DNA of 64,000 bases from Aureococcus anophagefferens (taxonomy: Eukaryota; Sar; Pelagophyceae; Pelagomonadales; Pelagomonadaceae). This document shows, one piece after another, positions 1 through 44,600 of this stretch; positions within the stretch are counted from its first letter, which is position 1, and each line of letters begins with the position of its first letter. Both the position numbers and the translations under genes were made by a program. The stretch spans positions 852,767-916,766 of the forward strand of contig NW_008705565.1 of assembly GCF_000186865.1 (NCBI RefSeq). The letters run 5' to 3'. The notes under the pieces were generated by a model, which searched no databases, was not told where the DNA came from, and saw only the letters and a program-made list of their open reading frames with translations.

Positions 1-3000
1 ACAGGCGCGCACGATCGTGGACAGCTACGAGACCACGTCGCTCACCGTCAGCTCCTCGCAGAGCGCCGTCGCGTTCATCGAGTCGTACGAGTCCCGCACG
101 GACCTCATCTTCGTCGTCGTCACGAGGCAGTGGTTCCGCCTGTACGCGGAATGGACGCTAACCGCAGCGATGAAGCGCTGCGGCGCATCCGCGGCGCTCT
201 TCAAGCTGCCCGTCCACAGGGCAGCAAAAGAGAGCGAAATTCCCAACTTCAAAGGCTCATATCTCGGCCGTTTTCCACTCGTTTTGGCTGATTTTTGGAC
301 GAGCGATCATCTCTCGGAACGGTCTCGAAGCGTGGATGCATCGCCGCGGCGGCGCCCGCGCCTTTGAGCTGTGGGCGTCCGCCGCGCGCGGATCCGGGCA
401 TCGGCGGCTTCGAGTGCGGCCTGCCGTCCGCCGGCGGCACCGACGGCGCCTGGCTGCCCCGAGGCGCCGGCGCGGCCTGCCGTCCGCCGGCGGCACCGCT
501 TTCTGGAACGCGCACGCGCGGAACACTCATGTTGAAGCGATGTTGAATCTCTCTTTTGCTGCCCAGGCCCGGAAGCGACGGCGACTGGGTCCGCGGCCAC
601 TACGCGCTCATCGGCCAGTGCGGCACGGGCGTGTCCTGGAGCTCCAGCAAGGGCCTCGAGGCTTCTTCCGTGGACGACGCCGTGACGCTGGACATCGACA
701 TCGACAGTTTCTTCAAAATTCCGAACGGAGAAGCCCTCGTCGACTTCAACTTCACCTACGACCCGAAGCTCAGTCCGACGCAGTGTCGCAGGTGCCTGCG
801 TAGGCGCCTACGAGGCTACGTAGCCTCGGCTCGAGCCTCTGGAGCCTACGTAGGCACCGCCATTGACGGGCTACGTAGGCGCGTCACAGACGCTGCCGCG
901 GCAAGGGCCCACTCAGCTATGCCCCCGTATGCTTCGGGGTGCCTGCTCGGGCCTGCGCCGTGGCGGCATCTGATGCGCCTACGTAGCCTCGTCCGGAGCC
1001 TACGATTCTATGACCTACGCGCCCTCGCAGGTCCGACGCTCACGAGCTTGAGCCGCTTCAACGGCACGACGGCCGGCGGCACGACGCTCGAGATCAACAT
1101 GACGGGCATTGAGACCCGCGTCGACCGCTGCACCGTGCCGGGTCCAAATCTCGCGCCCCGCGCAGGCATTGCCAAAGGTCTCGCGACGACAGGGAACGTC
1201 TCGGTGACGCTCGGCGGCGTCGCGTGCGCCGTCAAGTACTCGGAGATAGGCACCTATCGCGACCAGCATCTCTGCGACTGGGACGACGTCGACTGCACGA
1301 ACATTGGGATCTCCTACGACGACTATAGCAATACCACCATGATCACGTGCCTCACGAACTCCTGGGACTACTCCGGGGACGCCAAGGACGCGAACGTCAT
1401 CGTCGCGCTCGAGCCCTGGGGCAACGCTCGCAACCCCTCGGGCCTCACGTGGAGCTACATCGACCTCTGGAGCGCGCTGACGACGTGGGGCGGCGACGCG
1501 GCCAACGTGCCCGAGGCGCGAAACCGGTGTCTCTTCTTTTTGATGGGCGGGTTTGGTGGGGCTATTCGATCGTGCGGACGACGGCCCGGGACGGCGACTT
1601 CAACATTCGACGGCGACTTCAACAGCAACTACTGACGGACCGCAGCGGGAGCCGTTCGCCGGGGCTTTCCCAGAGCGGCGGTTTCCGCTCCCAGGACTCA
1701 CGCGTTCATCGCGAGAGCCCTGGGCGAAGACGGTGTGAAGTCAAAAATCGACCACCGCGAGCGGCGCCGTGAACGCGATGGTTCTGTGGGCCGAGCGCTG
1801 AAGTTCGACGCGGCGACGGTCCGGACGCCGTCGATGTGGCTCTACGACCCGACGGCCAGTGCAAAAGCTCCTCTGCAGGACAACACGGTCTGAGGCTCCG
1901 ACGACCACGATCCGAGGCTCCGACGACCACCGCGAGCGGAGGAACGCGCCGGGAATGCGCGGAGAAGGGCCGCGGCGCGGAGTCGTCCCTGGGCGAGTTT
2001 CCGGGTCGCACGGACCGTCGAGGCCCGTCGACGAGGCGCCTCGCGACGCTGCGGGTGAAAGAGGCCCTGGGTCTTGCGCGCGCTCAAGTTCAACACAGCG
2101 CCCTCCCTTCAACAAAACGACAACATGCAGCTCGCCAGTGAGAATTTGAGCAAGGCTTGGCGCTCTCCGCAATACTCGAGCGCTCGTGCGGCAAACTCAC
2201 CGGTACGTTCCCCGGCCTCCCGCGCGCGCCTCCCGCCCCCTCGTGGGCGCCTCTGGGCGCGCTTGCAGGGCCCAGGTCACTGACCTGGGTCTTGGGTCAC
2301 CCTGGCCGCCCTTCGACTTTGAGTTCGAGACGAGCGCCCCCGCCGTCGCAGGTACGCCCGGATGCTCGCGTGGGTCAAGGGCGTCGCCGGCGGCGCCCGG
2401 GGGTTCCTCGCGGGCCGTGGCCGCGGCGGCGACGCCCCCTTTGCGCTCGCGGACGCGGGCGGGTCCGCGACGTCGGGCCGCTCCGCGTCTCCGACTTCCG
2501 CGTCGGCCGCGGCGTCCGCCGCGACGGCCGAGTACCTCTACAACGTCACGACGGGCGCGACGCAGCTGCCCTCGACGCCCGTCCCGTCGAGCGCCACCGC
2601 GCTCGGCGGCGGGCCGCTCGGCGCGTTCTTCTCGGGCTTCGGCGACTGGGGCGCGGCGCGCGGCGCGCGCGGCACGTCCATGGGCACGTGCACGTCCATC
2701 TCCATGGACATGGGCGCCTTCCCGAACCTCGTGCCGCTGCTCGCCGACGCCGACGTCAAGGCGGTGCTCCAGGGCGCCGTGCTCCGCGGCGCGGCCGCGG
2801 GCGGGTCGTCGGCGACGCTCGAGTACCCCGCCGCGCGCGCGCTGGGCGCCTCCGTCTCGGAGACGCCCCGCGGCAAGCTCGCGCACCTGCTGCTCTTCGG
2901 CGCGCGGGCCTGCCTCTACGGCGGGTCCGCCGCCTGGCTCGCGCGCTGCTTGCTGACGGGCGACTTCGAGTACGACGGCGACTTCGACGTGTTCGAGAAG

Positions 3001-6000: not shown

Positions 6001-9000
6001 GGACCGTGGCTGGCTCTTCCTGCGAGCATGGCTGGGCCGCCAAAGTGGGCCGCGGAGTGGAGCTTTTGAGGCCGCTTCTGGAGCGGCGCAGCGGCGGCTC
6101 CGGGACGCTGGTGCGCTCTCTGGGGGGGGGCGGCCCGTCGCTCCGACGTCGAGCTCGTCGGCGAGGCGCGGTCTGTGGCTCGACGCGCGGCTGGCTGGTC
6201 CTGCGGGCGCGGCCCGGCCATCGACGCGATGCCCGTGCTCGTGGCTCGATGGGCTCGTGGAGGGGCTCGATCGGATTCTCCTTAATCTATTCCGCCCCCT
6301 CCCCGCGCCCTGACCATGGCAAACCCGTCACTTGATTGTAGGAGGGCGACAGCGTGACCATAACGCAGGGCCAATACATCGTCCTCGACGAGACGCCGCC
6401 GCCGTTGTACCTGCTCATCGTGCGTCCGGAGCGTCTTCGCCAGTGCTTCTTTGAGGCGATCTTCTAGGTCTACGGCGGAATCCTCGAGTTCTCGCCGGAC
6501 GTCGGCGACCTGGCGCTGAACGCCTCGTACATCTTCGTCTTCGGCGGCAAGCTCATCGTCGGCACGGAGGAGGAGCCGTTCCCGAGCCAGGCCCTCATCA
6601 CTCTCACGGGGGACAGAAATTCGTACGAGTTGCCCGTGTACGGGGCGAGGGCCCGGCGTACGACGAACATCTCGAGGGGGTCGCGCACGAGCGGGAGCCA
6701 CGCGTAGGCGAAATGCATCGCGGTCCGCGACGCGATCCTCGACCTCCACGGCATGCCGGCGAGGCCGTGGACGCGGCTCTCCGAAACTGTGCTCGCGGGC
6801 AACAACACAGTTCACTTGCTCGACGCCGTCGACTGGAAGGCCGGGGATCACATCTTCGTTACCTCTACGTCGTTCGACCCGTCGTTTCTCCGCGTCCGAG
6901 GCAAACGCCTCGATCTCACCGTCGTCCGCTCCGCAGGCTGGAGACGGAGGAGCGCTACATCGATTCCGTGAGCGACGACGGCCGCACCGTGACGCTCACG
7001 CAGCGACTCTACTTCCAGCACCTCGGAGATGGCTACTGGGACGAGACTGGCGAGATCGTCCCGGAGTATCGCGCCGAGGTCGGCCTTCTCACGCGAAATG
7101 TTGTCGTCCAAGGCGACGAGCAATCAAAGTCGCAGCAGTTCGGCGGGCAAATCGTCTTCGCGTCGTCGCAGATCTGGCGAGCCCGAGTGTCAAATCTCAC
7201 GTCAATCCCATCATGGCACCATATCGCCCATTTTCGTAGGGACAACCCGATCATCGGCCGGCTCAGCAACGTCGAGGTCCGCAACGCGGGGCAGGGCCTG
7301 AAACTGGGCAAATATCCGATTCACTTCCACATGGTGCGCCCTTGCCGCGTCCAATTTCATGCCTCTCGTAATCTGGCGCTCTCAGGTCGGCATCGTCGAC
7401 AAGTCGTACGTCATGAACTGCACCGTCCACTCCGCCAACAACCGCGCGATCGCCATCCACGGCGTGAACCAGCTACGAGTGACCTGGAACGTCGTGTTCA
7501 ACACGCGCGGCCACGCCATATTTATCGAAGATGGCACGGAGGTCCCTCGCCGCGCCTCCTCCCCCGGTCCGCGGTCGCCTGCTTCAGCGCGTCGTCGCAG
7601 GTTCGCAACACCATCGCGTACAATCTTGTGTCCGTCGTACGGGCGATCTGGAGTCTGCTGTTGGTCGACCAGAGCCCCGCCTGCTACTGGATCGTGAACC
7701 CCGACAACGACGTCTACGGCAACGTCGCCGCGGGGAGCAGCCACTACGGCTTCTGGTACCGCTCGCTTGAGAGGCCCGACGGCGTGTCGGGCCAGGCCAA
7801 CATCGATGAGAATATCCAGCAGTGCCCTATGTACACGCCTTTGGCTCGGTTCGATGGAAACGTGGCGCACAGCACGAAGCGCCACGGCCTGAAGCTCAGC
7901 GACTACTTCCCGGCGGTCGACGGCGCGTCGTGCGGCGCGAACACGTTCGGATCGCCCGCGACTTTCAAGGACTTCGTCGGCACTACACGGCGTGTCCTTC
8001 CGGAACGTGACGGATTCGAAAGGCGAGCCCCGACCTGTAGGCTACAACAACGGCCGCTTCGGGGTGTGGGGCGAGTTCCTCGTCGACGTCAACTTCGAGA
8101 ACTTGCGCATCCTGAATCCGGGCACGCGACCGGCGTAGGCCTTGGGAATCCTCGTTTGTTTGATTGCGGTACCCATCGTAGGCATCGGCGGCTTAGAGTT
8201 TCTCTACATGAACGGACGCGGCTCGGAGTTCGCCAAGTCGCACATCAGTAGTTCGCTGTTCGTCGGTCGAACCACGGAGATCGGCACAGCCCAGCGTCCC
8301 GCGGCCGTGACGACTTTCGAGAAATCGTTACCGGACGCACTGGCAGGCACGGCCGGCCTGGGCGACATGTGCGAGGGGTTGCAGGACGTGAACGGCGCGG
8401 TCAACCACGACGGCAACGGATGTGCGTCTCCAGCGTAGCATCGCATGCGGCTTACTTACATGACCATGCCCACAGGTATTCACGCGATCCACTTACCTGG
8501 CATCGGGTCGGAGCTCGTGGTCGCGAACACCTCATTCGTCAATTTCGAGGCGCACCCCCGCGTCGTCGGACACGTAGCCGCCCGGGTCCTCGACCGGCCG
8601 CCATGTAGGCACCTCTCTGGACGTGCTCGTGGTGCGTCGGCATAAAAGGCGGCTACGAGGTCGACTTTGGCAACATCAGTTTCACAAACGTGACGCGGCC
8701 CGCGACGTTCAAGAAGGGCTTCGGTGCGTCCCTCGGCGGATGTGGCTGCAGACCTATGACCTACGCGCCCACGCAGGCGGCGACATCGCCACGTCGGGAA
8801 TCCTCAACGACCTCGACGGGACGCTCGGCTCCGGAGCGCCCGGTGGCGTCGTCGCGCCGTACCATCCGGCGCTGCTTTCCGACTGGAACCCGGCACACTC
8901 AAAATCCCGCCCAACACAGGTACGCTGGTCACTTCGCCAACAACCCGAACTGCAAGATCGGCTACGACACGTTCGACGAGAACTACGGCGAGCCGGAGTA

Positions 9001-12000
9001 CGTCATGTGCTCGCGCACGGTCCGTCGCGTAAGCTTTTCGGGCTCCTGGACCTCCGCGTTTACCAACACGATCCGACTCTACAAGTATCCGCACATCCGC
9101 CTCGTGGACGTCACGGAATGGCAACCGTCGGAGAACGCGCAGTCGTTCTTCGAAGACCTCCCGTTTTGGCGCGTGCAGTCCGGCGACCAGAGCTGCGTCG
9201 AGCAGGCTCCCCAGGGGAAGTACCTTTTCTTGCTCGCAACGGGACGCGAGTACGCGATGATCTTCGTGGACCAGCTCGGCATTCCCGTAACGGCCAACGG
9301 CGAGATTTACGCCGCGAAAATGAAGCCGGACGAGCGCATCGTCGTGCACCTCAACCAGAAGGCGCCATTCCAGGCCGCGCACGCCTACGCTGAAGTCACG
9401 CAGAAGGCATCCAGCAACTGGGGCGAGAACACGGTCATGATCGGCTGGGAACCTGCGCCGCCAGCGCTCCCGGACTACAGCGTCGGCTCCGCTGACAGAG
9501 CCGACCAGCGTCTTGTGGCCGTGACGATTTTCGAGAGATTTGGGGTGGGAAAACAATGAGAAATCGTCACCGTCATGCTTGGTAGGCGCCGACTGCGCGT
9601 GGAACGAGTACACGAGATGCTCCGCGGATCCGCTCCACAAGATGCCCCAGCTCACGAAATCGCTGAGCCTCGACGCGTCCGGCGAGCTCGAGAACGAGGA
9701 CGCGCTGCTCGCCGTCGCCGGCGGCCGCACGGTCAGAGGCCAGTGGCTCACGGCGGCCGCCGGGCCCCTCGCGTCCGGGGACTACGAGGACTGGGTCCTC
9801 TGCGATTCGTCCGCGACGTACCTCCAGGGCTCTCAAATCGAGTTCACGGCCCTGACGTCGAGCAATTACGAGGAGACGCGCTGGCGCCACGGCTTCGACG
9901 GCGAGTACAGCCGCTTCGAGTTCTTCGAGGCCAGCGACGGCTACAAAGCGACGGGCTGGGTCGCCGGCGAGACGAACGGCACGATGACGATCTCGAACGT
10001 CATCGCGCCCATGTACTGCTGGGACGTCGCGCACGACTCGTCGACCTCCACGGAGCGCGCCGCGGACGCCGTCGGCGCCGCCGTCGAGCTCTGGTGGTGC
10101 GAGGAGAAGGACGAGACCGGCTTCCAGGACTGGGAGTGGGTCTCGACGTCGAACGGCGCGCTCCTGCGCAACGCGCGGACGCAGCTCTGCGCGGGCGTCG
10201 CCGAAGACGTCGACGAGGGCGCGGGCCTCGTGCTCTACGACTGCGCGACGATCGCGGGCGCCTCGTCCTACGGCTCGCTCGAGTTCGACGCGCGCTGGCT
10301 CGAGGAGACCGTCGTGACGCCGCGCCACGGCATCTTCCACTACGACCGCGACCAGGGCCCGGACGGCTACGACCCCGACGGCGTCACCTGGGACAACACG
10401 ACCACGGACGACTGGAACAAGATCGGCATGATCCCCTACGACGTCACGAACATCTCGACGATGTCGCTGCTCCTCGCGGGCAACTCGACCGTCGAGTTCA
10501 CGACGTCCATGTGCGGGCCCGAGGGCTGCCCCTACACGCTGCCCGTCTGCCGGACCTGCGGCACGCGCATGTTCAAGTGGACCACGGGCGACAGCGACCT
10601 CGACGCGATCAACTGGAACGTCACCGACGACCCGTCCGTCGACGTGCCCTCGCAGTCCCGCTCCGGCGCGACGCACGGGGGTTTCGCGGAGTTTGGAGAA
10701 CGCACCGCGAGTCTCACAGGTACTGGCAGGGCACGATCTGGGACGACTGGACCGTCATCATCGACGGCGAGACGCCCGTCGTGAACCGGCTCGTCGTGCG
10801 CGGCACGCTCATCTTCCAGCCCGACGCGAAAACGGACGTCGCGCTTCGCGCGCACTACGTGACCGTCGACGGCGGCCGCGTCATCATGGGCAACGAGACG
10901 GACCCCATCGACAACGAGACGACGGCGACGCTCTGGCTCCACGGCGACAAGTACTTGAGCACGATCAAGAAGGACGGCGAATGGACCCAGCTCTATAACT
11001 TCAAGCGCCTCGATCTCAACGGCAACTTTTCCATGTTCGGCGCGCCCGTCACCACCCATCGAAAGCTCGGCGCGAACGCGTTCGCGGGCGCGACCGCGGT
11101 GAACCTCAGCGCGCCGGCGGCCGACTGGCGCGCGGGCGACGAGCTCTACTTCTCGTCGTCGACGCACCACGGCGCGGGCCCCGGGTCCACGGCGGGCAAG
11201 CAGTACGCGGTCAACTACGTGAGGAACGTCTCCGAGGACGGGCTGACGGTGACGCTCGCGGAGCCCCTGACCCAGGACTACGTCGGCGCGTTGTACAACG
11301 TGTCCGCGACGGCCGTCTCCGGCGACCTGGTCGTGGACATCCGAGCGGTCGTGATGAACCGGCGCTGGAACTGCCGGGTCCTCGGCGGCGACACGACGAA
11401 GTTCGACCGCGCGTCCGGCACGACGGCCGCGCAGCAGGGCTACGGCGCGTCGATCCGCGCGCTGGACACGCGGACCGTCTCCAAGCCCGGCTGGAACAAG
11501 TTCGACGTCGGCTACGACCTCTACGGCACGGAGACGTTGCCCTACGGCCACGTCACCGTGCAGCACGCGCGCTTCGAGCGATGCGGCAAGGGCTACTTCA
11601 TGGCTCCCGACCGGGCCTGGGACGGCGTCGAGGCCGTGCCCTGCATCGGCTACAGTTCCGAGCAGGAATATGTGAAGTTCGTCGGCTCGCACGTCGTCAC
11701 GCCCTTCGTCGGCGGCGCCAAGTTCTCCTACGAGTACTTCCTGGCCGGCTACGACTCCGCGACGCTCAACTTCCGCCGGAACTTCTTCGTCGGCGAGAAC
11801 TTCTACTTCGCCGGGTCGTCCAGCGCGCCCCACGTCGTGACGGACAACGTCTTCCTCGGCGGCGCCGAGGGCTGCCCCATCGGCATGTGCCCCCAGCTCA
11901 TGATGGTCCGGCTCCTCACGTCCGAGGCCCGCGGGCTCGCGTTCTCGCGCAACTACGTCCACGGCGCCATGTACGCCGCGGTCCACGTCGGCGCGCCCTG

Positions 12001-15000
12001 CGAGGCCTTCCGGGAGTTCGAAAGCAACGTCGTCGCGAGTAGCTACATCGGCCTCAGCATCCCGTCGGGCGGCTGCGGGGCGCTCAACGCGTCCGCGCAC
12101 CGCTGCTCCGTCGGCGCGATCGTCGACCGGCCGGAGCTGCGCCACTTCTTCGGCGCGGAGAACGGCTTCGGCGCGCTGCCCATCGAGGACTCGTGGCAGA
12201 TCGGGTCGCAGATGACGCAGCCGGGCCTCAACGACTTCCAGATGCACTCGTCGCTCGCCAAGGTCGCCGACTCCGTCTTCGTCGGCGTGCTGCTCGACGC
12301 GCAGCGCGACGGCTTGCTCGACTGCGGCGCGCGCACGGGCGTGTCCTACGCCTTCGAGGACTGGCAGGTGGCCTTCCGCGACTGGGCCTACAGCGGCCTC
12401 CAGCGCGGCGGCTACGGCGGCTCCGCGGGCAACCGCATCGCCTACGGCGAGTCCGCGGTGAGCGCCTGGCTCGAGGTCCAGCGGACGGCCTTCGTCGCCT
12501 TCGCGTCGCCCCTCGACGCGTGCGCGAACCGCACGGGCGTCGCCATCGCCAACGAGGCCGCCGCGGCGGGCCAGGGGCCGTGTGCAAATCAAATCTTCAA
12601 CCCGACTTCAATGTTCGCGTATTCGAATGTTTTGACACAAGCACTTCCGCTGTGCTTCGAGAACTCGATGAGAGCAATCGATCCGTCCAAGAATCAGCCG
12701 AATCGACTTCGATTTGACCGAGCTAGAGAATTTCAAAGTTTGGTCGGGACGTCCCAGCTCACTGGTTGATTTGCACACAGGCCAGGGGTCCGGCACCGCG
12801 GCCATGGCGCTCGGCAGCGCCATGTGCTACCCAGGGCAGGACAAGAGAGCGAAATTCCCAACTTCAAAGGCCGATCTCGGCCGTTTTCCACTCGTTGTGG
12901 CTGATTTTTGGACGAGCGATCATCTCTCGGAACGGTCTCGAAGCGCGGATGCATCGCCGCGGCGGCGCCCGCGCCTTTGAGCTGTGGGCGTCCGCCGCGC
13001 GCGGATCCGGGCATCGGCGGCTTCGAGTGCGGCCTGCCGTCCGCCGGCGGCACCGACGGCGCCTGGCTGCCCCGAGGCGCCGGCGCGGCCTGCCGTCCGC
13101 CGGCGGCACCGCTTTCTGGAACGCGCACGCGCGGCGCACTCACGTTGAAGCGACGTTGAATCTCTCTTGTCCTGCCCAGGTGCTACCAGTGCCTGACGTC
13201 GGACCTCGCCTTCGTCGACACGCCCCACGACGGCCGCCTGGCCTTCTCGCCGGGCGGCGGCGGCGTGAGCGGGCTCGAGATCGACGAGGAGTACGGCGCG
13301 TGCACGCTCTACGACGAGGATGGGACGCTCTACGACACCAACAACGGGGCGTTGTACAAGGCGGACTTCGACCAGGAGTGGCCGGAAGACGTCTTAGAGG
13401 ACTGCCAGGACTACGCCGCAAACTACGACGACGCGCCTGATATGTCGCGAAATCAGTGTCGGCGCATAGGTGCCTACGTAGGCGCCTACGAGGCTACGTA
13501 GCCTCGGCTCGAGCCTCTGGAGCCTACGTAGGCGCCGCTTTTGAGGGGCTACGTAGGCGCCTACGCGCCTACGTAGCCTCGACCGGAACCTACGGACCTA
13601 TGACCTACGCGCCCACGCAGGTCGAAATGTCCCTGGTTCGTGCGCGAGAACCCCTTTTTGTTACAGGCGGCCACCGAGGATTCGCATCGCGGCTACGCGA
13701 CGCACCAGAGCGTCCGAGACGACGTCTCGAGCGATCCTTGTGTGTCCATGTCGTCTGTCAGTTCGGACAGACACGTTTCGCGGTGCTCGAAGGACTTCGT
13801 GACGATCAAGTACACGGTGCCCAAGCGGATCACTTCTGGCTCCGAAGTCCTTTGGGCCCCCGTCGCGCTGAGCACCGTTCGCTTCGAGTCGATCTGCACA
13901 TCGATCTACTACGAAGACGACACGGTCGTGGCGCTGCACTCGAACTACGGCGTCGACTCGGAGGCGGGCCAGTTCGCGAGCCGCTGGCCGCAGCCGTTCA
14001 TGCACCAAGTGCCCAATCAAGGCCAATATCACCTAGACTGGACGGGCGACGTGACCGCGTTCAGCGAGGACGGCGACTACACTTTTCAGCTTTTCGGCAC
14101 GGAAGCCCACGATCCCGTCGGCGACGACGAGTACGCGGCGATCGTCCTCGCGCTGAGTCGTAGAAATAGCTGCTGATTCCCCCGAACCAAAGCTCGTAGG
14201 TCACTTTCAAGTTCCTCAAGCCCTGCAAATTGCTGTTCTACGTCGACGGAAGAAAGGTCGACGGCGGCGTACGGCGCACGGACATCGATTTCACGAGGGA
14301 TGTTGGGTTTTCGTATCATCACGCGACGTCAGCGGCCGCGTCTGGACACTCCCTCCAACTTTGGGGAATGGCTCGCCATGTTGAAGTTTAGCCACTTTAT
14401 GTTGAACTTCAACATAGAGCCGCCGCGCGGTCCTGTGTGCGAACCCGCGTGTCTGCAGGTCAAAGATTGCGGCGGTGGTCCTCAAGGGCTCGAAGGAGGT
14501 CCGCGTCGTCGCGCTCCAGGTCGTCCAAGTCACGCTGGGCATCGCCGTCGATTTCGATGAGTTCTTCTCCGACAACCTCATCGACCCCGCCGCGATCGAC
14601 GACGAGTTTGCGGACAGCGTTCCTCCGGACTACGACGCCGATTATGACCCAAATGGCGGCAACATCGTCAAGGAGGATCCCTTCATACGAAACATGGCGT
14701 CGGTCCTGATGATCGACCCCGCTCGGATGAAAGTTACGAACATTTGCCCCGGCAACCGACGTCGCCGCCTCGCGGCGGACGGCCGCGTGCTCGAAGATTC
14801 GCAGGAGCTCGAAGTCGAGTGGGAGCTGAGCGAAGAGGACTGGTGTACGGAGACCATCGACTGCCACAACGGAGTCTGCACGACGTCCACGGGAAATTGT
14901 AACTGCGACGACGGCTGGGCGGGCTCGTACTGTAACATAACGGCTGCGAACGCCACCGCGGCCGAGAACGCGACCGCCGCGGCGAACGCGGTCTCCAACG

Positions 15001-18000
15001 CGACGTCGCAGTACGACGGTCTGCTCGCGGCAACGGCTACGCTCGAACAAAAGGCCGCAGACGGTCAGCTCGATGCCGGCTACGAGGTCACCGGGATAGC
15101 GATCGTGAAGCCAGACGACGTCTGCGGCGTCCCCGGAGGGAATGGCACGTCGTGCCTCGACGACTGCGGCGTCGCCAACGGCGACGGCACCTCCTGTGTG
15201 TCGACTCCAAGTCCCACGGCGACGTTCGAAAGCGATTTCGAGGAGTGCGGTACGGCCAGTTCCTCTAAGGGCGCGTCCGAAAAGCAGGGCGTCTGGATCT
15301 ACTCGAGCGATATCGACCCCTCGAGCTCCGACGGCTTCGGCGGCACCTACACGCTCAGCTTCGCGGGCTCCACCACGGCTCCTTTGGCCGTCTTCGCGAC
15401 GGCCGCGGACATCGAGCTGGCCCTGACGTCCCTCGACTCCGTGCGCGACAGCGGCGTGACGGTCACGGGCCTGCTCACGGACGACGGCGTCTCGAACGCG
15501 TCGGCCGTGACGGGCCTCGCGACGCAGATCCGCTTCGGCGTCGAGTTCCCGGCGAGCATGGCGACGACGGAGGAGGTCCAGAACGTCGGCGACCTGCCCC
15601 TCCTCACGCTCAACACGTCCACGCTCAGCGGCGACGTCTCCAACGACGTCGTCACCGAGCACTGCGCCGGCGCGTACCGCGCGGGCTACGACTACGCGGA
15701 GCAGACCGTGACGCTGACGTCGTCGGGCGGCCTCGTCACGGACTGTGTGGAAATCAAATATTCAACCCGACTTCAATGTGAGCGTAATCGAACGGTTTGG
15801 ACCAGACTCTTCGGCTGCGCTTCAAGAACTCGACGAGAGCAATCGATTCGTCCAAAAATCAGCCGAATCGACTTCGATTTGACCGAGCTAGAGATTTCTA
15901 AAGTTTGGCCCCGACATCCCAGCTCACTGGTTGATTTCCACACAGGTCACGGACATGACCGGTTCGTTCGCGCTCAAACTCCTCGGCTCCGGCGACTGCG
16001 GCAACGGCACGTCCCTCGCCATCGCGCCGACGTCGACGCCCCTCGAGCTCGCCCGGGCCGTCGCCGGGGGCGTCGGCGCGGGCCTCTTCGGCGGCTCGCT
16101 GCCCGCGTCGCGCGTCGAGGCGTTCCTCACGGGCTCGAGCGAGACGTCGCGGACCTGGACCGTACGGCTCTACACGCTGTCCGGCGAGGACCTCACGGGC
16201 TGCTCGGACACGGGCGCCTTCGCCGCCTTCGAGCCCGTCCTAAGCCTCGGCGACGCGCAGGCGACGGTGGCCGTCTCCGTGGCGACCGCGGGCGTCGTGC
16301 CGTCGGACGCGATGCCCGTGGACCTCACGCTCGCCGTCGCGCAGGAGGGCGCCACGGAGGCGGCGACCGTCGAGGCCGCGGAGGCGTCGAGCCTGGGCTA
16401 CGTGAAGCCCCTCGTCGTCGTCTGCGGCGACGGCGCCTACATGACGGCCGAGGGCTGCGACGACGGCAACCGGATCTCCGGCGACGGCTGCGACGCCAAC
16501 TGCACCGTCGCGGCCGGGGCCGGAGGACGGGGTGATTCCTTTTCCGCGCGCGTTCGTCCGAAATCGCTGAGAGAGAGACGCGCCCGCTTTTCCGCGCGCT
16601 TTCGTCCGAAACCGCCCCGAGAGGGATGGGGCGATTCTTTTTCCGCGCGCGTTCGTCCGAGGTGATTCCATTTCCGCGCGCGTTCGTCCGAAACCGCCCC
16701 GAGAGGGATGGGGCGATTCCTTTTTCCGCGCGCGTTCGTCCGAAATCGCTCCGAGAGAGAGACGCGCCGTTTCGCACAAAACCTTAAAACCCCTCAGGTC
16801 GAGGCGGGCTTCGTCTGCACGAAGCCCGTGTCCTGGACCTCCGTCTGCACGCTGCCCCTCGACGCGACGATCCAGTTCCAAAACGGCGGCGCGTCCCACA
16901 AAGTCGCCGAGGGCAACTCCACCGTTTTCGTCGTCGAGCGCATCGGCGACAACGCGACGGCCTGCGACGTCGCCTACACGACGGTCGACTCCACCGCGAA
17001 GCACCTCGCGCGGCAGAACACGGAGTACTCGGGCGGCTCCGTCCCCGCGGCCGGCGACTACGCGTGGATGAACGGCACGCTGCATTTCGCCGTCGGCGAG
17101 CTGACGAAGACGTTAACGGTCGCGGCCTACGAGGACGGCACCTACGACGGCGTCGCCGACGAGGTCTTCCTGCTGCGCCTGACGTCGACGACCTGCGAGG
17201 GCGGCTTCGTCGACGACGCGGCGACGCTCGAGAGCTACGTCCACGTCAAGGACCACGACCTCGTGCCCTCGCCCGCGCCGTCCGTGCCGCCGACGAACGC
17301 GCCGACGACGGCCGCGCCGTCCGCGGCGCCGACGCTGAACCCGTCCATCGACTGCGCCTCGGGCGCGCGCTTCCGCCTCAAGGGCTTCGGCAACGTTACC
17401 TGGGAGATCCGCGGCGCGGGCGATTCGTCCGCGCTCGAGAGCGGCGCCCTCGAGCGGTCCGAGAACTTCATGGACTGGGTCTGCCTCGCCGACGCGTGCT
17501 ACGACGTCGCCGTGACGAGCACGGACGACGCGGACACGGCCTGGCGCTTCGACGATTCGTCGGGCACGTCCGCGGAGGCCGCGGGCGCCAAGACGATCCG
17601 CGCCTGCGTGCTGGGCGGCCTCCTCGAGGGCTTCCCGACCTCCGCGCCGACGGCGTCGCCCCAGCCGTCGGGCATCCCGACCCCCGCGCCGAGCACGAAG
17701 CCGTCGCCGGCAGCGTCCGACGACGGGAGCGCGCGTGTTTTTATCGCCGGGAAACCGTTCCTCCTAGGTCCCCGGAGCCGACGACGGCCGCGCCGTCCGC
17801 GGCGCCGCAGCCGCTGCCCACGGCGATGCCCCTGCCGCTCCCGTCGGCCCTCCCGACGCCGTCGCCGTCGCCGGACTGCGCGTCGTCCGAGGTCATGTTC
17901 CGCTACGACGCCGACGTCGCCGCGACGGGGTCCATCTACGACCGCGTCGGCGGCGCCGGCGCCGCGGACGCGGTCGTCGCGACCGTCGCGGGAAGGAACG

Positions 18001-32686: not shown

Positions 32687-32736
32687 NNNNNNNNNNNNNN
32701 NNNNNNNNNNNNNNNNNNNNNNNNNNNNNNNNNNNN
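32687..32736. other. assembly gap (50 N)
   Basis: Exactly 50 undetermined bases, most likely a scaffold gap of conventional length rather than a measured one. The 5' end of the kinase-like gene at 32737 is lost in it. Confidence 0.99.
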
Positions 32737-34403
32737 GACCGGCGCCGCCTGGGCGAGCTCGCCGGCGCCGCGGGCTGCGTCGGCGACATGTACGGCCTGC
32801 CCCTGCCGCGGACGCCGCGGGAGGTGAGCAAGCTCGGCGCCGCGTGGCTCACGCGGTGCCTCCCAGGGCAGGAAAAGAGCGCGAAATTCCCAACTTCAAA
32901 GGCTCCTCTCTCGGCCGTTTTCCACTCGTTTCGGCTGATTTTTGGACGAGCGATCATCTCTTGGAACATGCTTTTTCCGGAACGCGCGCGCGCGGAACGC
33001 TCACGTTGAAGCGAACTTGAATCTCTCTTTTCCCGCCCAGGTGCTTCCACGCCGCGGGCACGCTGCCGAAGGACAACGCGGTGACGAAGATTGTGAAGGC
33101 CTACGAGCTGCCCGTGCACGGCGGCGCGGACTGCGCCGGCGGCGCGGGCCGCAAGCTCTTCCTCACGGTGGAGTACCTGAGCCCGGACCTCGCGCATCTA
33201 CACACGGAACTCTTCGTGAAACTGCCGTGGGAGCCCGACTGGCACATGCGCGGCGAGCTGAGCCTCGGCCTGGGCGACGGCGACGGGCTGGAGATCGCGA
33301 CCTACGTGTACCTGGAGCACCTGCTGCCCTGCCACGTGCCCAAGTACTACTTCGGGGACATCGACCGGTCCTCGACGAACTACGTGCTCGTCACGGAGCG
33401 CGTGCCCTACGCGGCGCGCGGCGCGGACCCCGAGGCCGTACCGCCCTACGCGCTGCGGCCCGCCTGCGGCAAGTACGAGGACTTCAAGCTCGCAAAGCCC
33501 GAGGCCTACTACAAGGCGCTCTTCCGCACCATGGGGCGCGTCGCGGCCTGGGACAAGCGGGGCCGCTTCGACGAGCATATGGAAATTTTCGACCAGATGA
33601 AGATGACGCAGCGCGTCGCCGGCCTGGCCGGCGACGCCTGGAAGCCCCGCCAGCGCACGAGCGAGGGCAAGTACGTCGCGGCGACGCCCGAGCGCGCCGC
33701 GGGCACGCGGAAGGCGCTCGGGTCCATCATCGACGCGGGCCTAAAATTCGTGAACGAGGTCGCGCCGTTCCTCTGCGAGCCGGCGGTGCTCGACCCGGCC
33801 TTCCAGGCGCGCTTCAAGGCCCAGATGCTCGACGCCCTCGTCTTCGCGGGGCTCGTGGGCAAGTTCGGCGCGAACGACTCCAAGTTCGTCGGGTTGACGC
33901 ACACGAACCTCCAGCTCGACAACGCGTACTTCTGGACGACGGACGACGGGGCGCTCGAGTGCGGCCTGCTGGACTGGTACATGTGCTCGCGCACGGCCAT
34001 GGCCCAGGTCTGGCTCGGCTGCCTCAGCGGCGCCGACGGCGAGTGCCTCGCGGGCCACGACCTCGACATCTTCAGAGCCTTCTCCGACGAGCACGAGGCC
34101 TTCGGCGGGCCCCGCGTGCCGCCGGAGGAGCTCCTCGAGCGCTTCACGCTCAACTTCCCGTCCTACATCATCGGCAACATCTCGAAGATCGAGACCCACA
34201 TCCTCAGCGAGGTGCCCGTGGAGAAGTGGACGGGGCTCACGTCGAAGGACGACGTCCTCGACGGGCCCTGGAACGCGCGCTGCTTCTCTCTCATGATCGC
34301 CAACGGCCTCTCCTACTGGTACCACAAGGGCGACGACCACCCGGGCGCCATCATGCTGAGGTGGGCCGCGAAGCACGACCTCGTCGTCGGGGACGCGGTG
34401 TAA
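32737..34403 (+). CDS. aminoglycoside-phosphotransferase/EcKinase-like protein, 5' truncated by gap
   Basis: About 490 residues remain once introner A3 (32856-33040) is removed, which joins AAWLTRC to FHAAGTLPKD. The order is that of the choline kinase/APH fold: LFVKLPWEPDW (the Lys strand), EIATYVYLEHLLPCHVPKYYF and YVLVTERVPY (hinge), then a catalytic-loop-like GLTHTNLQLDNAYFW and metal-site-like ECGLLDW. The usual HGD is replaced by THTN, so activity is uncertain. The long helical insert (residues about 170-290) resembles EcKinase/DUF1679-type proteins. The substrate is not predictable. The start is missing in the assembly gap. Confidence 0.65.
32856..33040 (+). mobile_element. introner family A, copy 3 (element 32864-33040, 177 bp)
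   Basis: Flanks GTGCCTCC (32856-32863) and GTGCTTCC (33041-33048) match at 7 of 8. Ends CAGGGCAGGAAAAGAG and CTCTCTTTTCCCGCCCAG. It shares with copies 1 and 2 the stretch GCGAAATTCCCAACTTCAAA through GATCATCTCT but lacks about 170 bases of the GC-rich interior, so it is a short variant. Spliced GT-AG, it restores the kinase frame. Confidence 0.9.
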
Positions 34404-35171: not shown

Positions 35172-35186
35172 CTTCGGGAGTCGGCC

Positions 35187-36722
35187 CTAGGAGATGGCGG
35201 CGTCGGGCATGCCCGGCGCGGTGACGGGCCCCGCGGCGAGCGCGAACTTCTTGCCGAGGACCGTCGCGACGCCGTCGCCGTCGGTCTTGAGGAAGCCGAT
35301 GACCTTCTCGAGGAGCTTCTTCTTCTGGACGGCCGACGGCGCCGCGGGCGGCACCACGGGGAGGTCGCCGAAGGCGACGCGGTCGCCGTTCTTCGCGCCC
35401 GGGGGCACCTCGAGGAGCTTGACGACCGTGTGGTCCGCGTTCGACGCGCAGAGGACCATGCCGCAGGACTTGAAGCCCTGCATGGTCCGCGCCTTGAGGT
35501 TGGCGAAGATGAGGACCTTGCGGCCCCGGATGTCGTCCGCGCTCGCGTAGAAGGGCCGGAGGCCGGACGCGATCGTCCGCGGGCCGGCCTCCTCGCCGAT
35601 GTCGATCTCCTCGCAGTAGAGCTTCTCGGCCTCGGGGTGCTCCCAGCACTTGACGACCGTGCCGACGCGGATGTCGAGGGCCGGCGCGCTCGCGAGGCAG
35701 TCGCCCTCGGGCGACCCGTCGGACGCCGGGCCCGCGGCCGCGGGCGCCGCGGCCGCCTTCTTCGGCTTCTCCTTCTTCTCCTTCTTCGCCTTCTTCGGCG
35801 CGTCCGCGGGCGCGCCGGTGGGCGCCGCGCCCGTCGCCGGCGCCGCCTGGGCGGCGCCCTTGGCGGGCGCGGGCGCCGCGCGCGCGGGCAGGCGGAGCGG
35901 GCCGGGCGCGTTCCGCGGCAGGCCGAGCTCGCGGGCCGCGGGCCACGCCGCGGCCGGCGCGAGGGCGCGGCACTCGGCCTGGACCTGGTCCAGCCAGCGC
36001 GCCGCCGCCGGCGACGGCGCCGCGGCGATCTGGGCGCCGCGGGCCGCGTAGCACGCCGCGTCCGCCAGCGTGAGCCGCTCGCCCGCGAGGTAGCTCCGCG
36101 TCGCGAGCGCGGCCTCGAGCGCGTCGACGCCGCCGGCGCCGCCGGCGGCCCAGGCCATCCACATGGCCACGCGCGCCCGCTCGAGGGGCGTCGACCCGCA
36201 CAGGCCCGTGCCGGCCGCGAGCGACCGCGCGTACGCGTTGGCGGTCGCGAACGGCGCCGCGGCCGTCCGCGAGCACGCGGCCGCGAGCGCCGCGGCGACG
36301 GCGCCGTCGGCGGCCTTGGGCGGCGCCTTCGCGGGCTTGGGCGCCGCGGCCTTTGGGGCGGCGGCCTTTGGGGCCGCGGCCGCGGGCGCGGCGGGCGCGG
36401 CGGCGCCCTCCTTGTGCGCCTTCTTCTTCGCGTCCTTGAGCGCCTTCTTCGCCGCGGCCTTTTGCGCGTTCTTGCTCGGGCCGCCCTCGTCGCCGCCGGC
36501 CGCCGCCGCCGCCGCCTCCTGCTTCTTCTTCTCCTTCTCGGCCTTCTTCTTCGCCGCCTTGTCGACGAGCGCCAGCGGGTGGCCCGGGTCCAGCGCCGTG
36601 ATCTTCTCCTTGATCGCCACGAGCGCGTCGACGGCGGTCTTGATCGCTGCCTTGTCCTGTCCGGCCTTGGCCGCCTTCACGGCTTCGCCGGCAGCGGTCG
36701 CCGCAGCGACGAGCTCGTCCAT
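35187..36722 (-). CDS. Arc1p/AIMP1-like tRNA-binding cofactor (WHEP, GST-C-like, EMAP-II domains)
   Basis: 511 residues. Binds tRNA and scaffolds aminoacyl-tRNA synthetases in the cytosol. Residues 1-60 look like a WHEP helical hairpin (LVAAATAAGEAVKAAKAGQD ... AIKEKITAL). A Lys/Ala-rich linker is followed by a GST-C-like helical bundle (about 170-260: RSYLAGERLTLADAACYAA). After a second Lys/Pro/Ala linker comes a complete tRNA-binding/EMAP-II domain from about residue 345: LDIRVGTVVKCWEHPEAEKL, YCEEIDIGE, PRTIASGL, VLIFANLKARTMQG and SCGMVLCAS, then the C-terminal EMAP subdomain. Arc1p has the GST-like and EMAP parts; a WHEP here is an interesting addition. Convergent with fibrillin, 15 bases apart. 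Confidence 0.88.
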   Translation of the reverse strand: MDELVAAATAAGEAVKAAKAGQDKAAIKTAVDALVAIKEKITALDPGHPLALVDKAAKKKAEKEKKKQEAAAAAAGGDEGGPSKNAQKAAAKKALKDAKKKAHKEGAAAPAAPAAAAPKAAAPKAAAPKPAKAPPKAADGAVAAALAAACSRTAAAPFATANAYARSLAAGTGLCGSTPLERARVAMWMAWAAGGAGGVDALEAALATRSYLAGERLTLADAACYAARGAQIAAAPSPAAARWLDQVQAECRALAPAAAWPAARELGLPRNAPGPLRLPARAAPAPAKGAAQAAPATGAAPTGAPADAPKKAKKEKKEKPKKAAAAPAAAGPASDGSPEGDCLASAPALDIRVGTVVKCWEHPEAEKLYCEEIDIGEEAGPRTIASGLRPFYASADDIRGRKVLIFANLKARTMQGFKSCGMVLCASNADHTVVKLLEVPPGAKNGDRVAFGDLPVVPPAAPSAVQKKKLLEKVIGFLKTDGDGVATVLGKKFALAAGPVTAPGMPDAAIS

Positions 36723-36840
36723 AATCAGCGAGTACGCTTTGGTGCACCTTGAAGCCTTGTTGCACTTCCGGAGGGATCCAACTCCGACTAAACTCCGACC
36801 GCCCGGAGACGTCGGTGCCAGCTTTACGGTCTTCTTGTCT

Positions 36841-38337
36841 TCACGCGCCGACGGGCGGCGGCGGCGGGAGGTCCGCGGCGCCCGGCTCGGGGACGAGGAC
36901 CGCGGTGTCGTCGTCGCCCGGCCCGGAGCCCCAGTCGACGTAGTCGTCGGTCTCGGCGGCGGCGTACTCGTCGCGGAGGTCCGTGACGACGTCCCGCGCG
37001 TCGTCGAACTCGTCGAGGTTGTCGGCGAACATGGGCTCGCGGCGGTAGTTCTCCATGAACGCGTTGCGCTTGCGGATGCGGTCGTAGGCCGTGACCGTCT
37101 TCGCGAAGAGCTGGGCGATGCACGTGTGGTTCGCGAGGAGGAGGCCCGAGACCTTGTGCTTCGTCTCGACGTAGGGCGACTTGCGCGAGAGCGCGACGTT
37201 GTAGGACGCGGGGCCCCAGGGGATGAACGACACGAGGTTCCGGTCGCGGATGCGCTGGAGCGCCTTGTGGACCTGCGTCGGGTCGACGTCGCCCTGGATG
37301 ATGTTGAGGAGGCTCAGGTAGCAGCCCCGCCGCGGGTTCGCGGAGACCATGATGTTCTTGGGCTGCGTGAGCCGCCGCATGACGTCGAGGACGGACGTCT
37401 TCCGCACCGCGCCCGCGGGCCGCGCCGCGCGCGCGGCGTCGCCCTCGGGCGCCGGCGCCGGCGCCGCGGCCGGGTCCTGGGGCCGCGCCAAATCGTCCGC
37501 GGAGATGGTCAGCGGCGTGTAGCCCGTCATGAGGAAGTGGCACCGCGGCGTCGGCACGAGCGACGCGACGAGGCCCACGAGGTCGTTGTTCATGTAGCCC
37601 GGGTAGCGCAGCGTCGTCGTCGACGCGGCCATGACCGTGGACACGAGCGAGTTGATGTGGTGCACGGACGGGTTCGGGATGCGGAGCCGGTCGACGGCGA
37701 TGCGGTTCAGCGCCGTGTTGTCTAAAACGACGACGCAGTCCGCGTTGACCGTGAGTCTTTTGAGCGTGAGCATGGAGTTGTAGGGCTGGACGACGACGTC
37801 GCTCTGGTCCTCCTCCCAGTTGGGGAAGACGCTGTACGTCGACACGAGCTTCTTCGGGAAGTGGTCGTTGAGGTGCTCGAGGATGTAGGAGCCCATGCCG
37901 CTCCCCGTGCCGCCGGCGATGGAGTGGGTCAGCACGAAGCCCTCGAGGGAGTCGCTGTTGTCCGCCTCGCGGTCGAACATGTCGAGGAGCAGCTCCGAGT
38001 TCTCCTGCGCCTGCCGGTAGCCCGACGCCCAGTTGTTGCCCGCGCCGCCGCCCTCCTTGGAGATGAAGATGTTCTCCGGGTTGAAGAGGTCGCGGTGCAT
38101 GGAAGACTGGATGCTGTTGACGACGCGCGGCTCGAGGTCGAGCAGCAGCGCGCGCGGCACAAACCGCTCGTCGTCCGCCTGGTAGAAGAAGACGTCCTTC
38201 CGGTCGTCGCCCTCGACGGCGAACTCCTCGGGGAGGCCGTTGGGCTGGATGCCGTGCTCCGCCGTGATCTGCTTCCAGAACTCGCTCCCGATCTGGTTCC
38301 CGCACTGGCCCACGCAGAGCGTGATGATCTCCTTCAT
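36841..38337 (-). CDS. TUBG: gamma-tubulin
   Basis: 498 residues, no intron. Nucleates microtubules within the gamma-tubulin ring complex. N-terminal [28 protein letters not shown] and [14 protein letters not shown] are gamma-type. The GTP-binding tubulin loop is [12 protein letters not shown], and [15 protein letters not shown] is conserved. It is about 45 residues longer than usual, owing to an Ala/Pro-rich insert at about residue 280 ([20 protein letters not shown]) in the loop after helix H9-equivalent, and an acidic Pro-rich end. ATG at 38335-38337. Divergent from the next gene, with about 310 bases between the starts. No partner gene of the ring complex is nearby. Confidence 0.96.
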
Positions 38338-41600: not shown

Positions 41601-44600
41601 CCATCAACGACGACACGGTCGCCTGGTACGAGAACGACTGCGGCACGTCTTCCCCGACGGCGACGCCCGCGCCCTCGCGCCCGCCGACGGCCGCGCCCAG
41701 CGCGACGCCGACGTCGCCCGCGCCGTCGACGCCGCCGACGGAGGCGCCGACGGCCGCGCCGACGGCCGCGCCGACGCACGCGCTCTGCCCTGCGGGCTCC
41801 TACAGCGGCGACCGCTCCGCGGCCGCGTGCGAGCCCTGCGCGCCGGGCACGTACGCCAACGGCACGGGCGCGTACGCCTGCGACATCTGCCCCGTGAACA
41901 CCTACGCCGTCGGCGGCGCCGCGGAGTGCGCCGCCTGCCCGGCCGGTCGTCAGTCGGGCCTCGGCAGCGACGGCTGCGGCTACTGCCTCGAGGGCCAGTA
42001 CCAGACGCTCGACGCGGACAGCAACAAGCTCTGCATCGACTGCGACGCGGGCTGGTACTCGCCCGTGGGCCTCACGTGCGCCGCCTGCGGCCCGGGCCTC
42101 TACACGCCGGACGGCGTCCAGTGCGTCTACTGCGAGTCCGGCCGCTTCAGCAACGGCACGGCGAACGAGGGCTGCGCGGACTGCCCCGCGGGCGCGGCCG
42201 CGGAGAGCGGCGCGTCGGCCTGCGCGCCCTGCGCCGCCGAGGCCTGCGACAACGCGACGGAGACCTGCGACCAGGGCTCCTACGGCCACGCGGCGGCGGC
42301 CGCGTCGTGCCTCGCGTGCCCCTACCCGCTCGTCGCGACGCGCGCCGCGGCGACGTTCTGCGACGGCTGCGCCGCGGGCACGTACTGGTCCGACGCCGTC
42401 CACGACGCCTGGCTCGCCAAGGGCTACCGGCACGAGGACGGGTCCCAGTGCGTCCAGTGCTGCCGCACGTGCGTCGCGGGCATGGCGTGCGACGTCGCGG
42501 GCCTCGACTCCGTCAGCCTCCGCATCGACGGCGGCTACTGGCGCGGGTCCGCCGAGTCCGTCGAGGTCTACGACTGCGCGAACCGCGGCAACTGCCCCGG
42601 CTCGGGCGCCGCGGGCGCGCTCGGCGGCGACGACCTGTGCGCGGGCCACTCCGAGGGCGTGCGCTGCAACGAGTGCGAGCGCGGGTTCTACCGCGGCGCC
42701 GACGGCGACTGCTTCGCCTGCGGCGGGTCGAGCGTCGCGCTCGTCGCCTTCTTCGCGACGGCCGCGGTGCTCGCCGCCGGCGCCTACGCGGCGCGGCCCT
42801 ACGTCGCGCGCGTGTCCTTCGGCCACTGGGACTGGTGGCTCACGACGGCGCTGACGCTCTGGTACGCGGCGCAGTCCAACGTCATCTTCTTCAAGATCGA
42901 GGAGCTCAGCACGCCGGCGCCCTTCAAGTACGTGCTCGACGCGCTCGACGTCCTGACATTCGCGTGGCTCAAGGGCCTCCTCTTCAGCCCTGCAACGCCC
43001 TCTTCGACTACTACTCGAAGATCGTCGCCGTCACGGCGGCGCCCGTCGCCGGCTTCGCGCTCTTCCTACTCGCGGGCGCCGCGCACGCGGCCGCGCGCGG
43101 CGGCGACCTCGCGGCGAAGCGCGGCGTCGTCGACGCGTACCTGCGGTCCTACGTCGTCGTCTTCCTCCTGTGCCACGTGTCTTTGTGCGTCTCCATCGGC
43201 GTCCCGCGACGAGTTTCGAGAGATGTGGGGTGGGAACACGAAGTTTATCGCGTGGCAGGTCTTCATCTTCGAGCACTTCCGCTGCGACGGGCCCTACGAG
43301 CTCTCGCCGGGGCGGAAGCGGCGCGTGCTCGCGGTCGACTACGGCGTGTCGTGCGACTCGGCGACGTACGCGCTCTACTCCTGGTACATGTCGCTCGCGC
43401 TCGCCTTCTACGTCTTCGGGCTGCCCCTCGCCGCCGTCGCCAAGCTGTGGTCGAACCGGCGCGGCGCCCAGCGCACGCCGAGCGAGCTCGCGGCCGTCGA
43501 CGGCCCGCTCGCGACGCTCACGGCCAAGTACCGCGCGCAGTTCTACTGGGTCGAGGTCGTCGACGTCTTCGAGCGCCTCACGCTCTGCGGATTGACGGTC
43601 TTCCTCTTCCCGTCCCGCCCGGGCATGCGCGTGGCCTGCTGCGTCCTGTTCCTCGTGTTCCGGCTCTGGCTCTCGGCGACGTACAAGCCCATCGTCAACG
43701 ACGCCCACCGCGCGGTCTCGCTGGCCTGCGTCGGCTACCTCGCCGTCTGCGTCGCCGTCGCCGTCATGAACCTGCCGGAGACGCCGCCGACGGCGCTCCA
43801 GGAGACCTGCTTCTCGAGCCTGCTCCTCGCGGCGTGCGCGGGCGTCGGTTTGCTCGCGCGCGCCGTCGCGTCGCGCGAGCGGGTCCACGCGCTCCTCGAC
43901 CGCATCCACCGCCGCGCGCCCTTCGACCGGGCCGACTTCGAGGCCGCCTACGGCGCCGCGGCGGCGGCGAAGGAGCTCCAGGGCGCCGCCGTCGCCGCCG
44001 CGTGCGCCGTGATCCGCGCGCCGACGGCCGCGTCCTGGGCCTACCTCAAGGCCCACCTCCAGCCGCTCCCGGTCTGGGCCGACGCGCCCGCCATCGACGT
44101 GCTGGCCCGCTGCGCGCCGTCCTTCGACGACGACGTCGCCGCGCGCGCGACGGGCGAGGGCCCGGTCGCCGACGACGTCGCGCGCGTCTTCGGCGCGGCC
44201 ATGGCCGCGACGCTCGCCGGTACGCCGGCCTTCGCCCGCGCCGAGGGCGGGGCGAGCGGCCGCGCCGACGCCCTGCGGCGCGTCGCCGCGGACCACGCCT
44301 GGAGCCCCTGGGAGGCGTTCCGCCTCGTCGCGCTCTGGGCGATGCACGGGACCAAGGCGGAGATGGACCGGCGGTGCGCCGCGTTCCTGGCGCTCGAGCC
44401 CTACGGCGACTACCTGCGCGCGGAGCGAGACGTCAAGGCGGACCTCGAGCAGCCGCTGCTCCGGCGCGCCGAGGTCGCCGCGGTGACGGACCTCGTCGCG
44501 CGCGGCCCGCAGACGGCGCGGTTCCTCGCCGAGGTCGACCGGCTCTGCTTCCCGGAACTGTTGAAAGCATTGTCGACGGCCGCCTTCGACGAGCTCGAGG

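Follow-up and report, generated by a model that had tools for sequence, protein, structure and literature searches.

Known introner systems

According to passages of other papers, Huff, Zilberman and Roy (2016) described introners of Aureococcus and Micromonas pusilla in which the element bears one splice site and the gene sequence supplies the other; a length of about 210 bp is given in one of these papers, insertion in both orientations in a review, and direct repeats with terminal inverted repeats of constant length in PMC7789003. Introners with target-site duplications (TSDs) and terminal inverted repeats (TIRs), in which the 3′ splice site lies on the element and the 5′ splice site is derived from the TSD, are described in passages of PMC9860276 (Gozashti et al., 2022), where rare GC and GA donors are also noted. 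In Amoebophrya, introners carry direct repeats at their borders and inverted repeats able to form an RNA hairpin that joins the intron ends, as stated in a passage of PMC7789003.

Here, a stretch of 64,000 nucleotides of the Aureococcus anophagefferens genome (the window) was analysed together with genome-wide scans of the 49-Mb genome, and it is highly probable that the introner elements found are small non-autonomous DNA transposons that generate 8-bp TSDs. The TSDs, TIRs, element-borne 3′ splice site and TSD-derived 5′ splice site are common to these families and those in the passages of PMC9860276; in family 4 of Aureococcus sp. described there, however, both splice sites lie on the element and the transcript gains 12 bp, whereas the families in this genome add nothing, as judged by the frame test below. 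Compared with the length of about 210 bp attributed to Huff et al. (2016), full-length introns of family F3 are 211 bp and those of family F1 usually 200 bp. Highly variable splice motifs and repeats of 3–5 nt are reported for Amoebophrya in the passage of PMC7789003, in contrast to the 8-bp repeat and GY...AG borders found here. Reverse-splicing (fungal-type) introners have no TSD, whereas the present elements duplicate 8 bp. The mechanism is already published for Aureococcus, as far as passages of other papers convey it. The sequence-only reading of the window, which is supported here in kind, had credited it to Huff et al. (2016), and this citation suits the organism, as an open reading frame of the window is 97% identical over 178 aa to a protein named as from Aureococcus anophagefferens. 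Two-way insertion is likewise credited to that study in a review, and its novelty is not claimed. For the share of GC donors, the flipped F1 sublineage (F1R) and the co-variation of element ends, nothing nearer was found in the literature searched, a comparison made with papers other than Huff et al. (2016) itself.

Introner copies in the window

Coordinates and flanks were checked anew against the sequence. A search by similarity to nine element copies identified 12 recognisable copies of four families (F1, F2, F3 and F5), a search that more decayed copies may escape, and the earlier proposal of several introner families in the window is borne out. The ten copies in one gene that had been proposed are not supported: the same search counted seven, one of them a remnant, between 6.3 and 20.2 kb, a region that is possibly a single gene. 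Flanks identical at 8/8 positions, as had been claimed, were found at four introns on the + strand: an F2 intron at 773–1030 (element 781–1030; GTCCGACG; GT donor), an F3 intron at 12570–12780 (element 12578–12780; GCCAGGGG), a long F1 intron at 12824–13179 (element 12832–13179; GTGCTACC; GT donor) and a second F3 intron at 15735–15945 (element 15743–15945; GTCACGGA; GT donor). Three further + strand introns have flanks at 7/8, as had been listed, namely an F1 intron at 32856–33040 (element 32864–33040; GTGCCTCC/GTGCTTCC; GT donor), whose host gene is conserved in other eukaryotes, an F5 intron at 43189–43258 (element 43197–43258; GTCTCCAT/GTCTTCAT), and an intron at 16507–16797, provisionally called F4. 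The flanks of the intron at 43189–43258 are common to a paralogue at C8:677415, and the insertion was therefore inherited via gene duplication. Matches of 7/8 also flank two more F5 introns on the + strand, a short one at 8284–8346 (element 8292–8346; GCACAGCC/GCACGGCC) and one at 9498–9585 (element 9506–9585, 95% identical to another F5 copy; GAGCCGAC/GCGCCGAC). Donors in the window vary, with GC at 208, 8284 and 12570 and a GA that would serve 9498. As read beforehand, the acceptor is CAG or TAG, and the donor lies in the duplication and the acceptor in the element; this holds for F1, F2, F3 and F5 alike, both for the window copies and for those sampled from the genome.

Poor duplications were observed in some copies of the window (208, the in-register 8-mer at 13446, and 27758). 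The long, 350-bp F1 element at 217–566 (+; intron 208–566) has a degraded duplication, matching at 3/8 in register and at 5/8 with a one-base shift, and an F5 element at 27758–27826 on the − strand (feature 27758–27834) has a duplication of just 4/8. The duplication of the F2 element at 13454–13620 (+; intron 13444–13620) is 6/8 in register, and its donor is probably at 13444. This element is identical to C17:548886–549052, which lies in another gene with different flanks and its own exact duplication, GTCTACGA. An F2 remnant at 8746–8776 (+) retains only the right end (ACGCGCCCACGCAG).

The four exact flank matches are far beyond chance, given that random GY...AG|GY pairs 50–360 bp apart in the window match at 8/8 with a frequency of 0.0022 and at 7/8 or better with a frequency of 0.013; the lone 7/8 match at 16507 carries little weight on its own. 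Ordinary old introns, whose flanks agree fortuitously or because of a proto-splice-site consensus, would account for 16507–16797, since this frame-restoring intron is single-copy and chance gives at least 7/8 in about 1.3% of pairs. The remaining introns have tens to hundreds of similar copies, each with its own duplication, which makes an old-intron origin most improbable as an account of the families. Of the seven introns that had been listed as mobile, six belong to multi-copy families with 8-bp duplications; the mobility of the seventh, at 16507, is not supported, and a mobile family F4 was rejected because the genome has a single copy.

Reading frames across the junctions

When the left duplicate and the element were taken out together, the frame was open across the junction in all seven listed introns, as the uninterrupted protein proposed earlier would demand. 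The best upstream and downstream frames, picked independently, agree for these seven and also for 208, 8284, 9498 and 13444; at 8284, the agreeing frame is closed by stops less than 150 bp away in both directions, and at 13444, a shift of the donor to the in-register 8-mer at 13446 breaks the frame. In a genome sample of 83 copies with flanks, excision restored the frame in 78 (one third being expected by chance), and the five failures all had low coding scores. Alignments with relatives are free of gaps across two junctions: L011 after splicing aligns with human xylulokinase (4bc2) over the junction ± ten residues, and the predicted spliced product at 32856, AAWLTRCFHAAGTL, is the same as in the orthologue P0002.

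Families in the genome

Searching the genome with the family ends, as the sequence-only reading had proposed, yielded 1295 exact matches to the F1 right-end pattern, against 0 for the same pattern read backwards, as well as 439 matches to a strict F3 pattern, 69 F5 matches and 40 F2 candidates. Many similar introns in unrelated genes are therefore found for the families, but not for 16507. Duplications of at least 7/8 were present in 38/41 F1 copies (8/8 in 32, 7/8 in 6) and in 40/42 F3 copies (8/8 in 38, 7/8 in 2), and a clean fit was obtained in 17/25 F2 regions and 14/15 F5 regions. F1R, a sublineage of F1 with flipped ends, showed the predicted ends and duplications (at least 6/8) in 13/13 readable regions.

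Origin of the donor and orientation of insertion

In the proposed mechanism, the acceptor (CAG or TAG) is carried by the element end destined for the 3′ side. Insertion into an exon would duplicate the target, and the left duplicate would serve as donor if, read along the coding strand, the duplicate adjoining the AG starts with GT or GC, or in rare cases GA; the spliceosome would then cut out the left duplicate with the element, and the right duplicate would remain as the original exon sequence. Insertions that cannot be spliced would be lost. F3 is found in both orientations because its mirror-image ends put an acceptor at either end; F1 occurs in one orientation and F1R in the other.

The duplicate starts with GT or GC in 266 of 269 listed copies (the first 100 listed of F1, the first 100 listed of F3, and 69 of F5), scored on the expected strand for F1 (99/100) and F5 (67/69) and on at least one strand for F3 (100/100), against a background in which GY makes up 0.19 of window dinucleotides and the either-strand chance is 0.36. 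GC donors account for 57/99 (F1), 55/100 (F3) and 50/69 (F5) among the matches listed, whereas a passage of PMC7789003 terms the splice motifs of Aureococcus canonical. The coding strand was as the rule predicts in all 74 decidable copies among the 83 with flanks.

The near absence of exceptions, 3 of 269 in three families, would also be expected if the transposase picked targets starting with GY, the donor being secured by target choice rather than by the loss of bad insertions. Such a preference leaves the agreement of the coding strand (74/74) unexplained, and GT is enriched relative to 0.25 in F1 (42/99) and F3 (45/100), as if GT splices better, but not in F5 (17/67); target choice is accordingly considered very unlikely. 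Spread through RNA, in which a spliced-out intron would enter other transcripts by reverse splicing and reach DNA through reverse transcription, would account for the genic location, exact borders and sense orientation of the copies, including the 74/74 strand agreement. However, each intron begins with 8 nt that match the next exon in its own gene and not the donor intron, whereas reverse splicing would bring the old 8 nt, and the internal orientations of F3 are equal (36 : 36, with 28 undecidable, among the first 100 listed). RNA-based spread is already contradicted by these observations and is barely credible.

Terminal repeats and a possible hairpin

The ends of F3 are mirror images (CTG...CAG) with an inverted repeat of 15 bp, and those of F1 (CAG...CAG) form an inverted repeat of about 14 bp save base 2, where an A–A mismatch is kept; the F2 and F5 ends are loosely inverted at most. 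An intron-end hairpin was previously proposed for the introners of Amoebophrya, according to a passage of PMC7789003. For the present families, it is conceivable, though rather doubtful, that the terminal repeats, beyond binding a transposase, pair in the pre-mRNA and bring a nearly consensus-free GY donor beside the AG acceptor, and that the intron is defined by a terminal hairpin, not by U1 pairing, is an equally tentative suggestion. A terminal hairpin would explain both the prevalence of GC donors and the co-variation of the ends. It is favoured by donors that lack a GTRAGT pattern or any consensus beyond the first two bases; by the fold of the F3 intron at 15735, which has the shape of a terminal hairpin with the donor 8 nt outside the stem and the AG at its base (z −4.5); and by co-variation, the two ends matching at repeat positions 9 and 11 of F1 in 45/54 and 42/54 copies (27 expected) and at position 8 of F3 in 40/43 (30.6 expected), with position 9 of F1 tied only weakly to lineage. 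The hairpin is weakened by F1 positions 15 and 17, which are variable yet do not co-vary, by the fold of the F1 intron at 32856, no better than shuffles (z −0.16), by the mismatch at base 2 and by the poor inverted ends of F2 and F5.

Transposase and related observations

Members of the hAT superfamily generate 8-bp duplications, and both of their ends read YARNG. An 8-bp duplication is also found here, and in F1, F2 and F5 the left end seen most often (CAGNG) fits this pattern; the right ends and F3 do not. hAT genes are present in the genome (four PF05699 matches, E 0.001–0.004), but no transposase with the ends of these elements was found: the one hAT transposase region inspected, at C1:943540 (one copy), had no F1 or F3 ends and no convincing ends with 8-bp duplications, where the search for a left end covered the first 2.7 kb and that for a right end reached 0.9 kb from the end of the open reading frame, a region in which short F2- or F5-like strings are too frequent to be informative. 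A check for spread to viruses, made with a single end pattern each of F3 and F1, found no exact match in IMG/VR contigs.

The two long F1 copies lie 12.6 kb apart, and segmental duplication was rejected for them by eye, as their duplications and flanking protein pieces differ; the sequence makes it more likely that they are separate insertions. Both contain a 156-bp insert, which was examined as a possible host-gene capture; it is 81–93% identical to sequence in a tandem array at C18:46212–46613 and has one short match on C10.

Implications

Introners are a well-supported route to rapid genome-wide intron gain, and in the Aureococcus genome the donor rule can be counted and has very few exceptions. 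The genome also makes it testable whether an insertion needs nothing but splicing to survive, and how a donor with only two fixed bases is defined.

Introner Families in the Window and Across the Genome

The genome searched comprises 49.05 Mb in 86 contigs, with the window at G000:C5:852767-916766; an assembly of Aureococcus anophagefferens of 49.9 Mb and 70.5% GC is described in PMC11237714. The GC content within the window is 62–84% per 2-kb segment. An ORF on the minus strand (35187-37310) is 97% alike, over 178 aa, to a protein named Aureococcus anophagefferens, and the host is thus this species or a very close one. The sequence-only reading had interpreted seven introns (773, 12570, 12824, 15735, 32856, 16507 and 43189) as mobile elements between matching 8-bp flanks whose splicing restores an uninterrupted protein. 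Their positions and flanks proved correct on re-reading, and all seven are open across the junction, with independently chosen frames of the two sides in agreement. Per compatible pair, a flank match by chance has a probability of 0.0022 for 8/8 and 0.013 for at least 7/8. Mobility is supported by multi-copy families, but not for the element of intron 16507 (F4, 16515-16797), which is single-copy in the genome.

The window holds 12 element copies: three of F1, three of F2 (including one remnant), two of F3 and four of F5. F1 (ends CAGGGCAGSAMAAG...CTTKTSCTGCCCAG, usually 192 bp) has 1295 right ends genome-wide, against 0 matches to the same pattern read backwards. F3 (ends CTGTGTGGAAATCAA...TTGATTTCCACACAG, usually 203 bp) gave 1704 first-look candidates, of which 40 were scored, and 439 matches to a strict pattern; its interior is related to that of F1 and oppositely oriented. 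F2 (ends CAGTGTCG...CGCAG, with internal TACGTAGGC repeats) has 40 candidates, and F5 (ends CAGCGTCC...GGTAG, about 80 bp) has 69 strict matches. A 156-bp insert in both long F1 copies (12955-13110 and within 217-566) resembles a tandem array at C18:46212-46613. Outside this genome, NZGT01000054.1, titled as a Spirochaeta MAG, has a right end resembling that of F3 (82% over 40 bp) with GT after it, and an ORF that by eye looks like acetyl-CoA carboxylase; it is perhaps a eukaryotic contig in a bacterial bin, and may point to a relative of F3 in a different marine alga.

Target-Site Duplications and Donor Supply

Duplications were 8/8 in 32, 7/8 in six, 6/8 in one and 3/8 in two of 41 unique F1 copies, and 8/8 in 38, 7/8 in two and 6/8 in two of 42 unique F3 copies, all within the set of loci retrieved. 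By manual reading of at most the three best rows per region, a GY-starting duplication of at least 7/8 stands right behind the AG in 14 of 15 small F5 regions (the miss is L088; one region, L075, is dependent on the window copy at 43189) and in 17 of 25 small F2 regions (the misses are L004, L008, L092, L098, L099, L102, L107 and L108). The F2 element of the intron at 13444 is identical over 167 bp to C17:548886-549052, whose own exact duplication is GTCTACGA, and this identity is sequence evidence of recent movement. The F5 insertion at 43189 and its 7/8 flank mismatch are common to a paralogue of the 43-kb gene at C8:677415 (L075), and this element was therefore copied along with its gene.

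The sequence-only reading had called for a genome search by family ends with flanking 8-mers, which upheld for F1, F3 and F5, in counts among the matches listed, the rule that the duplicate supplies the donor (GT or GC, GY) and the element the acceptor. The samples were, in contig order, the first 100 listed of 1052 F1 matches, the first 100 listed of 439 F3 matches, and all 69 F5 matches, the F1 and F3 patterns each making one element end visible. Among the matches listed, F1 right ends of the CTG type (CAG in gene orientation) had GY on the sense strand in 66/66, those of other types had antisense GY in 33/34, and F3 had GY on at least one strand in 100/100 (chance 0.36); GY makes up 0.19 of window dinucleotides. 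The 69 F5 duplicates start with GC in 50, GT in 17 and GA in 2. The F5 intron at 9498-9585 has a predicted GA donor, as do these two right-hand duplicates at their start. GT donors exceed background in F1 and F3, an excess that F5 does not show, and no donor consensus was found at bases 3–8 among the F1 and F3 matches listed or the 69 of F5.

Taken together, passages of PMC9860276, PMC9481584, PMC7789003, PMC12768974, PMC9612004 and PMC10228655 show that the mechanism, in this alga and with both orientations, has been published before.

Coding Context and Restored Proteins

Coding strand was scored without splice signals in 83 copies with 180-bp flanks, a non-random set drawn from searches ranked by similarity to window copies. 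It coincided with the strand predicted by GY/AG in 74/74 decidable cases, eight fitting both strands and one neither. Separately chosen left and right frames joined correctly in 78/83 copies; the coding score was below 0.1 in all five failures, and also in two successes. By a lax GC3 measure, 74% of 117 kb (3.3 kb double-counted) is coding-like. If a quarter of insertions were non-genic and unselected, about 17 of 100 F3 copies would be expected to have GY on neither strand; there were 0 among the matches listed, although exact end patterns would miss old decayed copies.

The spliced product of the F1 intron at 32856 reads AAWLTRCFHAAGTLPKDNAV, the same residues that P0002 has at that place, and P0004 and P0016 are, by eye, ungapped through the junction; the records of these three related proteins may be DNA- or RNA-derived and thus do not establish empty sites. 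After splicing, the product of region L011 aligns with human xylulokinase across the junction, with no gap within ten residues. A run of 50 N (32687-32736) adjoins the gene that holds intron 32856, so the 5′ end of that gene may be missing. Window 33042-34400 encodes a conserved protein with no Pfam match; its 68 relatives come from environmental, MMETSP and other records and include one labelled Effrenium voratum.

Candidate Transposase and RNA Shape

PF05699 has four matches in this genome (E 0.001-0.004); 14 control genomes gave none. Two of the four fall in hAT-type transposase genes within copies 98.6% alike over 2.7 kb (L111, C1:943540; L112, C13:599794), the N-terminal part being read on C1 alone. 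The 5.7 kb read around one copy contained neither F1 nor F3 ends, nor a repeat convincingly paired with a duplication; similarity to the element library was short and weak, and short F2- and F5-like strings were too frequent to be judged. Judged by the rule for hAT ends, the left ends most frequent in F1, F2 and F5 resemble such ends; right ends do not.

Two introns were folded. In that of F3 at 15735, the 8-nt duplicate is unpaired and the element is closed end to end (z -4.5), and in that of F1 at 32856 the stem is shorter and the stability excess absent (z -0.16). The two ends co-vary at repeat positions 9 and 11 in F1 and at position 8, more weakly 11, in F3, with none at F1 positions 15 and 17; lineage accounts for F1 position 11, and for position 9 only weakly. 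RNA pairing of the element ends is possible.

Orientation and the End-Flipped F1 Sublineage

F3, whose ends are mirror images, had 36 sense, 36 antisense and 28 insertions fitting both among the matches listed. F1 is one-way, and base 2 of its left end in gene orientation (54 copies) is A in 49, G in three, C in two and T in none. About a third of F1 right ends (34/100 among the matches listed) belong to an end-flipped sublineage, F1R, in which the interior is reversed, yet the ends in gene orientation are still CAG...CAG. Of 15 regions chosen to test this anatomy, 13 were readable and all 13 fit it; their duplications are 8/8 in nine, 7/8 in two and 6/8 in two. F1 and F1R interiors form separate clusters (same-type nearest neighbour 0.84 against 0.52, 50 copies). 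A simple reading, for which no ancestor was found, is that the ancestral element had CAG...CTG ends, in which a single substitution at one or other end would have created the acceptor; in F3, both ends would have changed.
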